From the NCBI RefSeq assembly GCF_000828675.1, contig NZ_AP014510.1:1383413-1447412 (forward strand): a stretch of 64,000 nt of DNA, in the 5' to 3' direction. The DNA comes from Thermotoga profunda AZM34c06 (GTDB taxonomy: Bacteria > Thermotogota > Thermotogae > Thermotogales > DSM-5069). Positions 20,484 to 44,420 of this stretch are shown piece by piece. A model generated the notes under the pieces. That model did no database searches and was not told where the DNA came from. It saw only the letters and a list, made by a program, of their open reading frames with translations. How positions within the stretch are numbered: position 1 is the stretch's first letter; each line of letters opens with the position of its first letter. Position numbers and translations under genes: made by a program.

Positions 20484-21272
20484 ATCATTAGGTGTAGCTG
20501 TTGTGAGTTTCTGGAGTATTAACCCTGGTGAAGCCAAGATTTTTATGAATTTTGAACCTCTGGCGGATATTCGCAAGAACTCGTACGAAAATCCTATAAC
20601 TACGGGGATCAATACTATTCTACTGATCACCTTCCCAGTCAATCCAAGTGATATCAGTGAACCAAGTAGGCTGAAAACAACAATGGAAATTATCAAAAAG
20701 ATCATCATGAAACTTGTCCCACATCTTGGATGAATCGTGCTATGTTTTCTGACATTTTCGACGGTTAATTCTTCATTCGCTTCATATGCATGAATGACCA
20801 TATGTTCAGCGCCATGGTATTGAAAAATTCTTTTCACATCTTTAAGAAGTGAAATGACATAGACATACAACAAAAACAAACCCAACCTGATCAAACCTTC
20901 AACAAGTGAAAACATGAACTCGTTATCCTTCAAAAATTTAAGCAAATTTGTCAGAAAAACCGGTAATACGAGAAAAAGACCAACAGCCAAAGCAACAGCT
21001 AAAAGCAGAGAGAAAATGGTCTCTGATCTTTTCATCTTTTGTCCTGAGCTAATCTCAGCTGACCTGTCAAGTGCATATATTCCATAGTAAAGAGAATAGT
21101 AAAGGCTGATAATTCCTCTGAGAAAGGCTATCTTGAATAGTTTAGAACTTGATGGCGTTTTCTTGCTGATCTCTTCAACTACTATTGCTCCTTTGTTATC
21201 TCTAACAGCTATGGATACATTCCTACCAATCATCAACACACCTTCGATGATCGCTTGTCCTCCTACTTTCAT
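20382..21272 (-). CDS. YqhQ-like DUF1385 membrane protein
   Basis: A 296-residue protein of the DUF1385 family. It starts with the typical VGGQAIIEGVLMIGR and has the central FQYHGAEHMVIHAYE with two conserved histidines, then TIHPRCGTSFMMIFL. Four or so membrane helices lie between about 85 and 235. The histidine and cysteine residues suggest a metal-dependent membrane enzyme, but no reaction is established to my knowledge. It overlaps the histidine kinase by 4 nt upstream and the convergent transferase gene by 102 nt downstream. Confidence 0.83.
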   Translation of the reverse strand: MKVGGQAIIEGVLMIGRNVSIAVRDNKGAIVVEEISKKTPSSSKLFKIAFLRGIISLYYSLYYGIYALDRSAEISSGQKMKRSETIFSLLLAVALAVGLFLVLPVFLTNLLKFLKDNEFMFSLVEGLIRLGLFLLYVYVISLLKDVKRIFQYHGAEHMVIHAYEANEELTVENVRKHSTIHPRCGTSFMMIFLIISIVVFSLLGSLISLGLTGKVISRIVLIPVVIGFSYEFLRISARGSKFIKILASPGLILQKLTTATPNDSQIEVAIAALRKAIDEERNTNCKKDSEGPEFFG

Positions 21273-22591
21273 ATTTTTTCCTCCTCATGGCATCTGGGCA
21301 TGATGATTGTGAATTCACTTCCCTCGTTAGGTTTACTCTGAAGATCTATCTTACATCCCATTATCCTCGAGAGCTTTTCGACCAAAGACAAACCAAGACC
21401 ATATCCATTATTCGATCTTGATTTGTCACCTTTGTAGAACCTTCGAAAGATCTTTTCTTTTTCCGATTCATCTATTCCTATACCAAAATCCTTGACACTC
21501 ACCCACCCATTACCGCACCTGAGAATTACTTGTTTTCTATCTTTTGAAAATTTTATGGCGTTTTCAGTCAGGGCTTTGACGATAATTTGTAAGACCTTTG
21601 GGTCTGCACAACCTATACCTTCTCCCTCAACATCTATTTGAAAATCGTTGAATTCACGTTTGAATTCGCTTGCCAGATCCTCCAGAAAAGATCTTAATTC
21701 TATTGATCTTATCTCCAATTTTGTTATAGGTCTTGACAACATGAGTAGTGTTTCAGAAAGATTGATGAGTTTTGCGCAAGTTTCTTGTATTGCTTGAGCA
21801 GATTCATTGACAATTTCTTTGTTATCAGCAAAACGCTGAATCAATTCTGAATAACCTTGTATCGTAGTTAAAGGTGTCCTTAACTCATGCGAAACGTCGT
21901 TAATGAAGTCGTTCTGTGCCTCAAAACCAATTTTCAATCTATCGAGCATATTGTTGATGGTCTCCGCAAGCATGGAGACTTCATCGTTAAGTCCAGGATC
22001 ATATACCCTTCTTGTTAAATCTGTTGTATTAATATCTTTCAATTCATTTGTGATTCTGTTCATGGGCGCAAGTGATTTACTCACAAAGTAGTTACCCACA
22101 AGAAGAGATATACCACTGAAGAAAATCCAAAAGATGATAAATCCACGTGACAGGATCTTCAGAAAATCCCCCATGCCACCTGCTGGGGAAAGTAAGTAAA
22201 AATCCCTTTCTCCAATAACACTCATGAATCTTGCCTTTGCGACAAGATATTCATCTCTTCCAAGCTTTATATATGTTGGTCTTTTCACCTTCAGAACCTG
22301 TTCGACGAATTTCCCAAAATGTTCATGCTCTGTATTTATACTTCCCAAAACTACATTTCCACCATCATCCAGAACAGCTACACCCGGCGGCAATTGGAGA
22401 TTCATCAAAATCCTTCCGGGCATTTTGAATGCATTCAGAACATCTCTTCTGAGATTTTCCACTGAACGATTCAAATGCATATTTTTAACCAATGAATAAG
22501 CCGCCGTTAAACCAAGACCAAGTACCACCGAGAAAAGTACGGTCTGCCAGAACACCATTTTCCATTTAAGTGTTGAGAACATATCCAACAC
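21269..22591 (-). CDS. Sensor histidine kinase with HAMP domain
   Basis: A 440-residue membrane kinase. TM1 (about 13-33) and TM2 (about 150-170) enclose an extracytoplasmic domain of about 110 residues; a HAMP linker follows (about 172-222). The phospho-acceptor is H235 in NDVSHELRTPLTTIQGY. The HATPase domain shows the N box (ALTENAIKFS), DFGIGIDE and the GYGLGLSLVEKL G2 box. The ligand is unknown. It overlaps the response regulator by 26 nt and forms one operon with it and a lytic transglycosylase, hinting at an envelope signal. Confidence 0.92.
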   Translation of the reverse strand: MLDMFSTLKWKMVFWQTVLFSVVLGLGLTAAYSLVKNMHLNRSVENLRRDVLNAFKMPGRILMNLQLPPGVAVLDDGGNVVLGSINTEHEHFGKFVEQVLKVKRPTYIKLGRDEYLVAKARFMSVIGERDFYLLSPAGGMGDFLKILSRGFIIFWIFFSGISLLVGNYFVSKSLAPMNRITNELKDINTTDLTRRVYDPGLNDEVSMLAETINNMLDRLKIGFEAQNDFINDVSHELRTPLTTIQGYSELIQRFADNKEIVNESAQAIQETCAKLINLSETLLMLSRPITKLEIRSIELRSFLEDLASEFKREFNDFQIDVEGEGIGCADPKVLQIIVKALTENAIKFSKDRKQVILRCGNGWVSVKDFGIGIDESEKEKIFRRFYKGDKSRSNNGYGLGLSLVEKLSRIMGCKIDLQSKPNEGSEFTIIMPRCHEEEKI

Positions 22592-23225
22592 CTCTGATAG
22601 TTCTTATTAGATGAGCATTTCCTTTCATTTTATCTCTCAAATATTTCACATAGACATCGACTACATTTTTACTTATGTATTCACTGTCACCCCAGATCTC
22701 TTTGAGTAATTCTTCCCTACTCACAACCTTTCCTTCATTTATGCAAAGATAATACAGTAGACTGCTTTCTCTTTCTGAAAGAACAGTCATCGAACCATCG
22801 GGAAAGATGAGTGTTTTGGATCCAATATCAAAAACAATTTCACCAATTTTGAATTGCTCGGGCTTTCTAACCCTTCTTGCTACCGCCTCAACACGTGCTA
22901 ATAACTCATCCAAATGAAATGGCTTTGGTACATAATCATCGGCACCTTTCTTGAGACCACGTATCTTATTTTCTACTTCTCCACGAGCCGTTAAAACAAT
23001 TATTCCAACCTCTTCATCGACAGATCTTATTTTTTCAAGAACTTCGAAACCATCCATGCCAGGTAACATCAAATCAAGGATCACCAAAGAAGGATTGTGC
23101 ATTGAAAACATCTTCCAACCTTCTTCACCAGTAGCTGCAACGTACACATCATAACCATGGTTTGAAAAAAGTATTTCCAAAAGGCGCGCTATCTTTTGAT
23201 CATCTTCCACTATTAATAGCCTTAT
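22566..23225 (-). CDS. OmpR/PhoB-family response regulator; start codon uncertain (AUA 23225 or GTG 23210)
   Basis: A receiver domain and a winged-helix DNA-binding domain (SERESSLLYYLC, then SKNVVDVYVKYLRDKM and TIRGVGYVL). The phospho-acceptor Asp lies in LVILDLMLP. The first usual start, GTG 23210, would begin the protein at MEDDQKIA and remove the first beta strand of the receiver. In the same frame the five codons upstream (ATA 23225, AGG, CTA, TTA, ATA) encode the expected RLLI before VEDD, and AGGAG lies 10 nt before that ATA; an in-frame TGA precedes it. I therefore give the longer form, which assumes a rare AUA start. With it the Asp is at position 51, normal for the family. Confidence 0.78.
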   Translation of the reverse strand: MRLLIVEDDQKIARLLEILFSNHGYDVYVAATGEEGWKMFSMHNPSLVILDLMLPGMDGFEVLEKIRSVDEEVGIIVLTARGEVENKIRGLKKGADDYVPKPFHLDELLARVEAVARRVRKPEQFKIGEIVFDIGSKTLIFPDGSMTVLSERESSLLYYLCINEGKVVSREELLKEIWGDSEYISKNVVDVYVKYLRDKMKGNAHLIRTIRGVGYVLNT

Positions 23226-41703: not shown

Positions 41704-42011
41704 AAGGGTATACTTTGATCGAGTTGATAATTGGCATTGCAATCATTTCTATAGCTCTAATCATACTGATCTTATCAGCAGACCAAGCTGTAAGAAGTTT
41801 TTCGAAATCAAACGAAGTTCTTACAAAAACTGCAACATTTTTCAATCAAGTAACCTCAAATTTTGCAGGACAAACTTCGGGAAATTTAGTCAATACCCTC
41901 GACAAAGTTCTCAATTATCAACTTGTTGGGGCTTATGCGTTCTTCGATTCGATTGAAGTCAGATCAGTTTCTCAAGGTTATGTTTATACATTGAAAGATC
42001 CCAGGTTTTAA
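41700..42011 (+). CDS. Small prepilin-like protein
   Basis: A 103-residue protein with MKG followed by YTLIELIIGIAIISIALIIL: a class III prepilin leader of three residues, then the conserved helix with Glu5. The short C-terminal part has no known domain. The start overlaps the large surface protein (ATGA). Its stop overlaps the convergent phospholipase-like gene by 4 nt. The general prepilin peptidase and assembly ATPase are not in this window. Confidence 0.8.
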   Translation: MKGYTLIELIIGIAIISIALIILILSADQAVRSFSKSNEVLTKTATFFNQVTSNFAGQTSGNLVNTLDKVLNYQLVGAYAFFDSIEVRSVSQGYVYTLKDPRF

Positions 42012-42979
42012 ATCTGTCCCACTTCTTTCAAAAAACTCATCAAGAATCCACGAGCTAAGGACGAGAATCTTGAAATGATATCAATCGTGACTTTTTTTAA
42101 TGTCTGAAGATCACCCTTACGAGCAACATAATCAGAGATTGTAAGAACTCTTTCTTTGAGAAGATCTTCGTAGACTACTCTCAATTGTTTGTCAACATTT
42201 TCGATGTTACTCAGACCAAGCCAGCGAACTTTTTGTATAAGTTGGCGCAAGTGCCTGGAATTTTCAGGTTGGGCTTGCTTTATGGCATCTACAGCATCTT
42301 GATCATAATCATACAATAGATATGCTAAATACTCATCATAGGAGTAATGCGAATTCGAAAGTAATTGAGCCATTTGTTTATCTGTAATCGCTTTCAGAGT
42401 ATCAAAAAATGGACCAGGAGCATTGTGGTAAGGCATGGATAGATCTTCAAGGTAGTGAAGTGCCCTTGCCAAGAAACGGTATCCCCAGTATTCATCGCCT
42501 TTCTTAAATGCTTGCCGAGACATGTCTACAAAATAGTAAAAACTTTGACTTCCCTCAAAGAATTCGAAGATCGCTATGTTGTACTTCATGTGCCTAACAC
42601 CTTGGCTATTACCAATCATATCTTGTAAAGGTGAAAGTTGTAAACCTTCGTCCATGCCAAAATCTGGCTCAACTGAGTACACCATCAATATCTGCCAAAC
42701 AGGAACTTTTCCATCAACTGGTTTTGGATCTGGTGGAAGGTAACATATATCCCTCAGCGAACAGGATTTTATGAATTCTCCACAATAGTCGTCAAGTCTG
42801 AGAGAATCTTTGTTATAAACTCGTTTTTCATCGTAATTGTACGAAGTTATTTGAACCAATTTGTCACTGTTTGGAAGAAAATCTTTAATTAGCAAGTAGG
42901 TGAGCACTTCATGAGCAGACCAAGAAAAAGTCATCAAGCAGTGAAAACCAAGTACCATCATGATGAAGATCTTCTTCAT
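42008..42979 (-). CDS. Secreted zinc-dependent phospholipase C / P1-nuclease-like protein
   Basis: About 323 residues from ATG 42979, behind GAGGGTG. The signal peptide (MKKIFIMMVLGFHCLMTFS) is followed by WSAHEVLTYLL. In the phospholipase C/P1-nuclease fold the mature N-terminal Trp binds zinc, and Trp here would be residue 1 after cleavage at TFS. A histidine-rich metal motif, ARALHYLEDLSMPYHN near residue 160, matches the central helix of this fold, and SHYSYDEYL supplies another His. Substrate (phospholipid or nucleic acid) is not resolved. Divergent from rocD across a repeat-rich region. Confidence 0.75.
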   Translation of the reverse strand: MKKIFIMMVLGFHCLMTFSWSAHEVLTYLLIKDFLPNSDKLVQITSYNYDEKRVYNKDSLRLDDYCGEFIKSCSLRDICYLPPDPKPVDGKVPVWQILMVYSVEPDFGMDEGLQLSPLQDMIGNSQGVRHMKYNIAIFEFFEGSQSFYYFVDMSRQAFKKGDEYWGYRFLARALHYLEDLSMPYHNAPGPFFDTLKAITDKQMAQLLSNSHYSYDEYLAYLLYDYDQDAVDAIKQAQPENSRHLRQLIQKVRWLGLSNIENVDKQLRVVYEDLLKERVLTISDYVARKGDLQTLKKVTIDIISRFSSLARGFLMSFLKEVGQI

Positions 42980-43000: not shown

Positions 43001-43120
43001 ATCACATAAGTTAGCATACCTGAGCATAAGAGAGCATAAGTAAGAAAGAGAGAGAATCAGAACAATGCAAAGAGATTGCCAAAGATTGCCAAGCATAGTC
43101 AAAGATTGCCGGATTTTGCC
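43001..43120. repeat. Array of short repeats phased at exactly 10 bp between zinc-PLC-like gene and rocD
   Basis: Two related families follow one another in the same 10-bp register. The first has units ending ACATAAG, AGCATACC, AGCATAAG and AGCATAAG (43001-43040). The second has AGATTGCC, AGATTGCC, GCATAGTC, AGATTGCC and ATTTTGCC (43071-43120). Units between are degenerate and purine-rich (TAAGAAAGAG, AGAGAATCAG). One helical turn per unit would place all copies on the same DNA face. The last TTGCCA (43116-43121) could double as the -35 of a rocD promoter with TAGTAT or TATTAT (43138-43146) as -10. Confidence 0.7.
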
Positions 43121-43184
43121 AAATATGGGAATAATGGTAGTATTATACAGGAAAGTAACAGAAATGCTACAAAGGAGGGTTAGA

Positions 43185-44420
43185 ATGATTGGTTCATATT
43201 TCATGGAACTCGAAGATAGGTATGGAGCACACAATTACAAACCAATCCCGGTTGTCATCGAAAAAGGAGAAGGTGTTTGGGTATGGGATGTTGAAGGAAA
43301 TAAATATCTTGACATGCTCTCGGCATACTCAGCTCTCAACCACGGGCATCGCCATCCCAAAATTATGAAAGCTTTAACGGATCAGATGGGTAAACTCACG
43401 TTGACTTCAAGGGCCTTTTACAACAATCTTCTCGGCCGATTTGAGGAAAGATTGGCAAAATTTGCAGGTTATGACAAAGTGCTCCCCATGAACACTGGAG
43501 CCGAGGCTGTCGAAAGCGCCTTAAAAATAGCACGCAAGTGGGCTTACTATAAGCATGGTATCCCCATGAATGATGGAAACATCATAACAGTAGAAGGCAA
43601 TTTTCACGGAAGAACAATAACTATAATCTCGTTTTCCACTGAACATCAATACCGAGATGGTTTTGGACCTTACACACCTGGTTTCAAAACAGCTCCATTT
43701 GGCGATGCAAAGTCACTTGAAAGTCTGATCGATGAACGTACTATAGGAATTTTAATAGAACCCATCCAAGGTGAAGGTGGTGTAAGAGTACCAAAAGAGG
43801 GTTATCTCAGAGAACTGAAGGAAATTTCAAAAAAATATGAAGTTCTTTTAATGTTCGACGAAATCCAAACAGGTCTTGGTAGAACTGGGAAGATGTTTGC
43901 GTGGCAATGGGAGGATGCCAAGCCAGACATTTTGATATTGGGAAAAGCTCTCGGCGGTGGAGTGTATCCTGTTTCTGCTGTTTTGGCGAACGATGAAATA
44001 ATGAGTGTTTTAAAACCTGGCGATCATGGATCAACATTCGGTGGAAATCCGCTCGCGGCGGCGGTGGGAATCGCAGCAATAGATGTTCTCGAAGAAGAAA
44101 AACTCGATGTCAGGGCAAGAGAACTCGGTGATTATTTCATCAAACAACTCAAAGCTATTGAAAGTGAATATGTTAGAGAGATTCGTGGTAAAGGTCTCCT
44201 AATAGGTGTTGAAATCAAGAAAGAATACGGAACGGCCAGGCCTTTCTGTGAGAAACTGGCAAAACTCGGAATATTGTGTAAGGAAACTCATGATCAAGTT
44301 GTGAGATTTGCTCCTCCACTCGTGATAAGTAAAGAAGAAATAGACTGGGCACTCGAGAGAATCTCAAAAGTTCTCACAGAACCTGTTCACAACAAGAATG
44401 TCTCAAAAAAGATTAATTGA
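43185..44420 (+). CDS. rocD: Ornithine aminotransferase
   Basis: A 411-residue class III PLP aminotransferase. PLP lysine is K254 in ILGKALGGGVYPVSAVLA, and D225 is in MFDEIQTGLGRTGK. The N-terminal GAHNYKPIPVVIEKGEGVWV block and SRAFYNNLLG are typical for ornithine aminotransferase rather than acetylornithine aminotransferase. It converts ornithine and 2-oxoglutarate to glutamate semialdehyde and glutamate. Start ATG 43185 follows AAAGGAGGGT. Ornithine carbamoyltransferase is encoded 1.5 kb away on the other strand, so both ornithine routes lie close by. Confidence 0.9.
   Translation: MIGSYFMELEDRYGAHNYKPIPVVIEKGEGVWVWDVEGNKYLDMLSAYSALNHGHRHPKIMKALTDQMGKLTLTSRAFYNNLLGRFEERLAKFAGYDKVLPMNTGAEAVESALKIARKWAYYKHGIPMNDGNIITVEGNFHGRTITIISFSTEHQYRDGFGPYTPGFKTAPFGDAKSLESLIDERTIGILIEPIQGEGGVRVPKEGYLRELKEISKKYEVLLMFDEIQTGLGRTGKMFAWQWEDAKPDILILGKALGGGVYPVSAVLANDEIMSVLKPGDHGSTFGGNPLAAAVGIAAIDVLEEEKLDVRARELGDYFIKQLKAIESEYVREIRGKGLLIGVEIKKEYGTARPFCEKLAKLGILCKETHDQVVRFAPPLVISKEEIDWALERISKVLTEPVHNKNVSKKIN

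Follow-up and report, generated by a model that had tools for sequence, protein, structure and literature searches.

A conserved array of 10-bp direct repeats upstream of rocD and related genes: a putative operator for arginine and ornithine catabolism in Thermotogota

Introduction

What purpose, if any, is served by a series of 10-nt units lying in one register between rocD and the gene divergent from it? The question is raised by a 64,000-nucleotide stretch of the Thermotoga profunda AZM34c06 genome (hereafter, the window), for which it had been predicted that the units, brought by one-turn phasing to the same face of the DNA, serve the cooperative binding of a protein or bending, a neutral microsatellite being the alternative. 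The analysis described here points to a conserved operator array governing the breakdown of arginine and ornithine; the original prediction knew of no regulator site of such form in Thermotogae, and no published description was found in open-access papers.

The repeat array upstream of rocD

The features of the locus are as follows (window coordinates):

42011–42979, minus strand: divergent gene of no recognised family, sharing the intergenic region with rocD (no Pfam, NCBIfam or PDB match)
43001–43010, plus strand: degenerate first unit ATCACATAAG, in register, GCATA core not conserved
43011–43040, plus strand: core array TTAGCATACC TGAGCATAAG AGAGCATAAG, consensus NRHGCATAMN, with the same units upstream of rocD in 10 family genomes
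43041–43060, plus strand: purine-rich in-register units TAAGAAAGAG AGAGAATCAG (alignment of 10 genomes)
43071–43120, plus strand: TTGCC-core units AGAGATTGCC AAAGATTGCC AAGCATAGTC AAAGATTGCC GGATTTTGCC, conserved in the window's own genus
43116–43121, plus strand: predicted rocD -35, TTGCCA, 75 bp past the end of the core array
43138–43143, plus strand: predicted rocD -10, TAGTAT, preceded by TG, 16 bp from the -35
43185–44420, plus strand: rocD, ornithine--oxo-acid aminotransferase, the target gene (TIGR01885, 556.9 bits, cut-off 378.4)

The 10-bp repeat array at rocD is real. Read from 43001 to 43120, the sequence consists of twelve 10-nt units in a single exact register, bearing out the dozen or so originally described; from the 5' end, ATCACATAAG, TTAGCATACC, TGAGCATAAG, AGAGCATAAG, TAAGAAAGAG, AGAGAATCAG and AACAATGCAA are followed by AGAGATTGCC, AAAGATTGCC, AAGCATAGTC, AAAGATTGCC and GGATTTTGCC. 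Over 43001–43146 the lag-10 identity is 0.54 versus 0.29 ± 0.04 in dinucleotide shuffles (z = 6.6, a value matched by 0 of 5000 shuffles), lags 20 and 30 give 0.55 and 0.49, and the remaining lags lie at about 0.2–0.34; the summed lag score is 1.66, the next-best of the non-overlapping 146-bp stretches of the whole 64 kb reaching 1.10. Tandem Repeats Finder reports just two short pieces of the array. One unit, AAGCATAGTC, does mix the two cores, as had been noticed, its GCATA being displaced by one base from the register; the figure of nine core-bearing units is reached provided that this unit, the degenerate first unit and GGATTTTGCC are all counted. The rocD start is taken as the ATG at 43185, downstream of GGAGGG, and the suggestion that the last unit supplies a possible -35 agrees with the predicted promoter. 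A reading of the array at the RNA level was dropped, since the region has no Rfam match and folds no better than shuffles (z -0.08); no terminator was found there.

Relatives were searched for in 41 genomes, and ten same-family upstream regions of rocD were aligned, a comparison which the original prediction had proposed for Pseudothermotoga as a way to tell a functional site from a neutral microsatellite. Register and AGCATA units are kept in all ten regions while the flanks diverge, the consensus being TGAGCATACG, then GAGAAAGAGA AAG, and the array is found in other genera too. The stretch that follows it at 43041–43060, (T)GAGAAAGAGAAAG, is kept across the whole family at rocD; it was not seen at other target genes and no role was found for it. 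In one genome (G002) the array is present without a detectable relative of the divergent gene at the locus; the array thus goes with rocD, and the divergent gene is not needed for it. Neither Pfam nor NCBIfam nor the PDB sequences lend support to the description of that gene as zinc-phospholipase-like.

The two kinds of unit, at first treated as one element, are different things: only the AGCATA units recur in other promoters and other genera. Units of the AGATTGCC type occur only before rocD in Pseudothermotoga. They are retained in no genus but that of the window, most members of the sister genus having two TTGCC copies left near the -35, and none were seen in other target promoters. They are probably a second, Pseudothermotoga-specific element set in the same register.

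Distribution of the array and its target genes

Across Thermotogota the unit reads N-R-H-GCATA-M-N, each array having 2–5 tandem copies arranged head-to-tail and spaced exactly 10 bp; the profile of 173 units is weak-R-A-G-C-A-T-A-C/A. Arrays are borne by Pseudothermotoga, Fervidobacterium, Thermosipho, relatives of Kosmotoga/Mesotoga and of Marinitoga, and a single Negativicutes genome. A pattern search (three units, at most 2 mismatches) gave 61 matches in 31 of 103 Thermotogota genomes, compared with 4 for the reversed control pattern, and a sequence-only model built from 31 arrays has matches at E <= 0.3 in 65 of the 103, the core array of the window scoring E 5.7e-6 in its own genome. A genome search for tandem units, which had been put forward as a further check, yielded a second array in the same genome (GAGCATACTCAAGCATACGTGAGCATACT at G000:C1:1350672), upstream of a cDPGS-like gene.

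The arrays stand before rocD, the cDPGS-like gene, argF/arcB together with arcC, arcA together with an antiporter gene (arcD), ord-ortA-ortB (followed by genes read as oraS/oraE, putatively of oxidative ornithine degradation) and gdhA. An M20 peptidase gene accompanied by a transporter gene belongs here too, as does, in genomes of the Fervidobacterium type, a gene for an M55 aminopeptidase. All of the best 30 loci checked adjoin one of these targets, 27 of them an arginine/ornithine or cDPGS-like gene and three the M55 gene. The array, described in the original prediction for the rocD intergenic region, is not peculiar to that region and marks an arginine/ornithine regulon in many genera. The predicted regulon amounts to about eight transcription units, and the uncharacterised cDPGS-like protein, which has a weak match to cyclic 2,3-diphosphoglycerate synthetase structures (E 4e-7) and no Pfam family, would thereby be placed in arginine metabolism.

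Two arrangements among these loci deserve mention. In one genome (G012, L288 3633–4850) a transposase gene, IS110-like by eye, separates the array from the ornithine degradation operon. In Mesotoga-type genomes (L080, L083, L084, L282) the array is within or beside the start of argS, divergent from argF-arcC, and argS may be co-controlled.

When about 85,000 species were scanned for three exact units, 91 stretches matched; those outside Thermotogota are mostly perfect microsatellites or single chance matches and were set aside, only one having a target-type gene correctly placed. This exception, in a Negativicutes genome, has five perfect units before a cDPGS-like gene (protein 62% identical), in the same phase and 65 bp from the predicted -35; the genome is GC-rich and the GCATA core is kept. 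The locus adjoins putative cyanophycinase and cyanophycin synthetase genes, as read from the sequence; cyanophycin is a polymer of aspartate and arginine.

Helical phase relative to the predicted promoters

In the stretch separating each array from the start codon of its target, the best sigma-70-like promoter was picked regardless of phase. The end of the last good unit lies 34, 44, 54–55, 64–65, 73–76 or 85 bp from the predicted -35, with few exceptions (67, 91 and 93 bp, at weak promoters); the array thus keeps helical phase with the predicted promoter. For 13 gene x family groups the resultant length R is 0.925 at period 10.2, a value reached by 0 of 150 sets of shuffled spacers (maximum 0.59; p <= 5e-7 for uniform phases), same-gene groups in related families being partly dependent and the phase being seen across seven genes and two phyla. 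This extends the idea of helical phasing for cooperative protein binding, put forward for rocD, to the predicted -35s of the other targets. Nearly all arrays have the orientation of the gene they precede. The exceptions, both inverted, are the arrays of one family (f8), 43–58 bp upstream of the cDPGS-like start codon, and those of the Fervidobacterium M55 gene, 2–22 bp before the predicted -35. The predicted gdhA and ord promoters are weak; several other target promoters are near consensus (TTGAAA-17-TATAAT) and look strong unaided. From one target promoter to another, whole helical turns have been gained or lost in the spacing of array and -35, and this naturally occurring series offers a direct test of face-of-helix activation in thermophiles.

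Proposed mechanism and alternative explanations

One subunit per turn on one face of the DNA, and whole turns to the -35, suggest by their anatomy a cooperative activator which touches RNA polymerase. One protein subunit would occupy each 10-bp unit in the major groove at the GCATA core; head-to-tail units one turn apart would align the subunits on one face and favour cooperative binding, the affinity being set by the number of units. The bound array, integral turns upstream of a sigma-70 promoter and with its near end about 35–85 bp before the -35, would activate by contact with RNA polymerase from the array face, and rocD, the arginine deiminase genes, the oxidative ornithine pathway, gdhA and the cDPGS-like gene would be switched on together. 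The array, its conservation, its targets and its phase with the predicted promoters are observed; protein binding, activation over repression and the signal (arginine or ornithine) are what we infer.

In our opinion the best explanation, with a probability of roughly two in three (about 0.68), is that a cooperative activator of arginine/ornithine catabolism has the AGCATA array as its operator. It is favoured by the non-random register, by the retention of the core array in ten family genomes where the rest has diverged, by the excess of pattern and model matches and their unfailing position beside a listed target among the best 30 loci, and by the phase with the -35, shared with the Negativicutes array before the cDPGS-like gene. 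Against it, the promoters are predicted ones, of which the gdhA and ord promoters are weak while several target promoters look strong unaided; among the protein families examined, no single one is tied to the array; and the inverted arrays of family f8 and of the M55 gene, close to the start codon or the -35, would also suit a repressor. A repressor which blocks or loops the promoter when arginine or ornithine is scarce, and is released when they are present, would also account for near-consensus promoters at many targets; it is nevertheless less likely than the activator, since most arrays lie 34–85 bp upstream of the -35, gene-oriented and in phase, which is the usual activator layout, and no second, downstream array that could close a loop was seen.

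Intrinsic DNA shape, acting by phased bending or as an UP-like element for the alpha subunit of RNA polymerase, could exploit the exact 10-bp repetition, which keeps phase with the -35, and the A-rich units between array and rocD promoter; it is quite improbable, given that conservation falls on GCATA and not on A-tracts, that a single pathway is marked and that the same core persists in the GC-rich Negativicutes genome. A neutral minisatellite generated by slippage is already refuted for the AGCATA units: their number does differ between genomes, which the original prediction, if conservation among close strains were also lacking, would have counted in favour of a microsatellite, but they are conserved among relatives, with unit, register, orientation and phase all unchanged before seven genes in many genera. 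The TTGCC units could be partly of slippage origin.

Known systems and candidate binding proteins

Several regulators are known to act on short direct repeats. OmpR-type repeats are decamers in length. The tor boxes bound by the activator TorR at torCAD (PMC9239176), and OmpR-PhoB operators, are likewise made up of multiple short direct repeats preceding a sigma-70 promoter, and the arrays have the corresponding direct repeats about one turn apart, in phase with a predicted promoter of this kind; sequence and pathway are different. Streptomyces BldC operators (PMC5859096), where a cooperative oligomer bends DNA, share with the arrays head-to-tail direct repeats that vary in number and are spaced close to one helical turn (2–5 units in one orientation here), but BldC repeats are 9 bp with AATT, and HTH_17 proteins are absent from many array-bearing Thermotogota. 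RptR promoters have three short direct repeats, which are however of 9 bp with the palindrome TAGCTA and bound by a repressor over the -10 (PMC12255303). By analogy, the array may work like the direct-repeat activators of the OmpR family and the oligomers of BldC. For each of the BldC, MraZ and ArgR systems a defining feature was looked for and not found. MraZ operators are 10-bp periodic direct repeats, as is the array, but have a TGGG core and belong to the dcw cluster, and among the 103 genomes no MraZ match exceeds the cut-off.

The pathway itself calls to mind ArgR/AhrC, which controls arginine catabolism by activation from upstream sites; hexameric ArgR bound to tandem half-ARG boxes would explain why the targets are arginine genes, and ArgR is known to act on ADI pathway genes (for example PMC11172107, PMC5291005). 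In Microthrix (L174) TATGCATAAA x3 before argC, and in an actinobacterium (L133) GGCGCATAAG x3 before argG, share the GCATA core and, standing at arginine biosynthesis genes, are possibly ArgR sites. As binder of the arrays ArgR is nonetheless largely refuted and very improbable: the units are direct repeats (NRHGCATAMN) and not the ARG-box palindrome, and the N-terminal domain PF01316 is over cut-off in 8 Thermotoga-type genomes only, all array-free, with none in families f1, f3, f9 and f10, so that ArgR and arrays never co-occur in the genomes searched. It is as if Thermotoga had swapped one system, array or ArgR, for the other. Tentatively, an undescribed arginine- or ornithine-responsive regulator, assembling head-to-tail on one-turn arrays of free length and activating from any whole number of turns upstream, may be an ancient alternative to ArgR in Thermotogota and, in part, Negativicutes; if so, an early-branching thermophile phylum would control the breakdown of arginine and ornithine by a code that does not involve ArgR.

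Other families were set aside on their distribution. BldC-type HTH_17 has no match in array-bearing G006, G012, G022, G034 and G096; an AraC-type regulator (of the Pseudomonas ArgR/OruR kind) is discounted by the lack of HTH_18 in array-bearing G000–G003, G005–G007, G012 and G022; PadR is absent from array-bearing G005 (99% complete) and G073, and occurs elsewhere whether or not the genome has arrays. In one Marinitoga (L263) the ornithine operon is preceded by a gene for a PAS-GGDEF protein, which was considered as a RocR-like activator and rejected, no AAA/HTH part being seen. No regulator family recurs next to the arrays except an OmpR-type pair in Fervidobacterium-type genomes.

The window itself contains a pair of this type:

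22566–23210, minus strand: OmpR/PhoB-family response regulator (Response_reg and Trans_reg_C), candidate array binder by inference only
21269–22591, minus strand: histidine kinase paired with the candidate regulator (HAMP, HisKA, HATPase_c)

When the OmpR-family regulators of four genomes were compared, one mutual-best-match group, which includes 22566–23210, was confined to the array-bearing ones, and across the phylum the score of the candidate is two-peaked (about 260–370 bits versus at most 250). Its orthologues are present in all 33 genomes with an array at E <= 0.001 and in 41 of 44 at 0.01, and in 0 of the 8 ArgR genomes, a co-occurrence confounded by phylogeny; in Fervidobacterium-type genomes the gene pair is convergent with the array and its cDPGS-like target, and proteins of the OmpR type are known to occupy direct repeats set head-to-tail at close to one turn, as with the tor boxes of the activator TorR (PMC9239176). 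On the other side, array-bearing genomes of family f8 (G048–G051, G055) have no orthologue, many array-free genomes have one, the recognition helix is near-invariant elsewhere but differs in Pseudothermotoga (f1) despite the same array, and no array precedes the regulator gene itself. Within the activator reading, the response regulator driven by its kinase is the best candidate binder, but it is doubtful that it and its orthologues bind the array. The regulator gene has no ATG, GTG or TTG before VEDD, the frame reading ...CKIRLLIVEDD, and likely uses an unusual start codon.

Other 10-bp arrays

Arrays of other sequence were encountered in passing. In several unrelated Proteobacteria 10-bp arrays of the CGCGCATAAC type lie between AlbA_2-like (MTENPIPLKESLTVEFKSD...) and helicase-like genes, and a similar array is found near an AlbA_2-like gene in a Treponema (loci L153, L169, L186 and L165 in all); the arrangement resembles a conserved array belonging to a defence-like operon. 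In four Bathyarchaeota genomes (L132, L138, L140, L184), 10-bp arrays of the AAGCATAAC type are placed between two divergent PadR-like genes.
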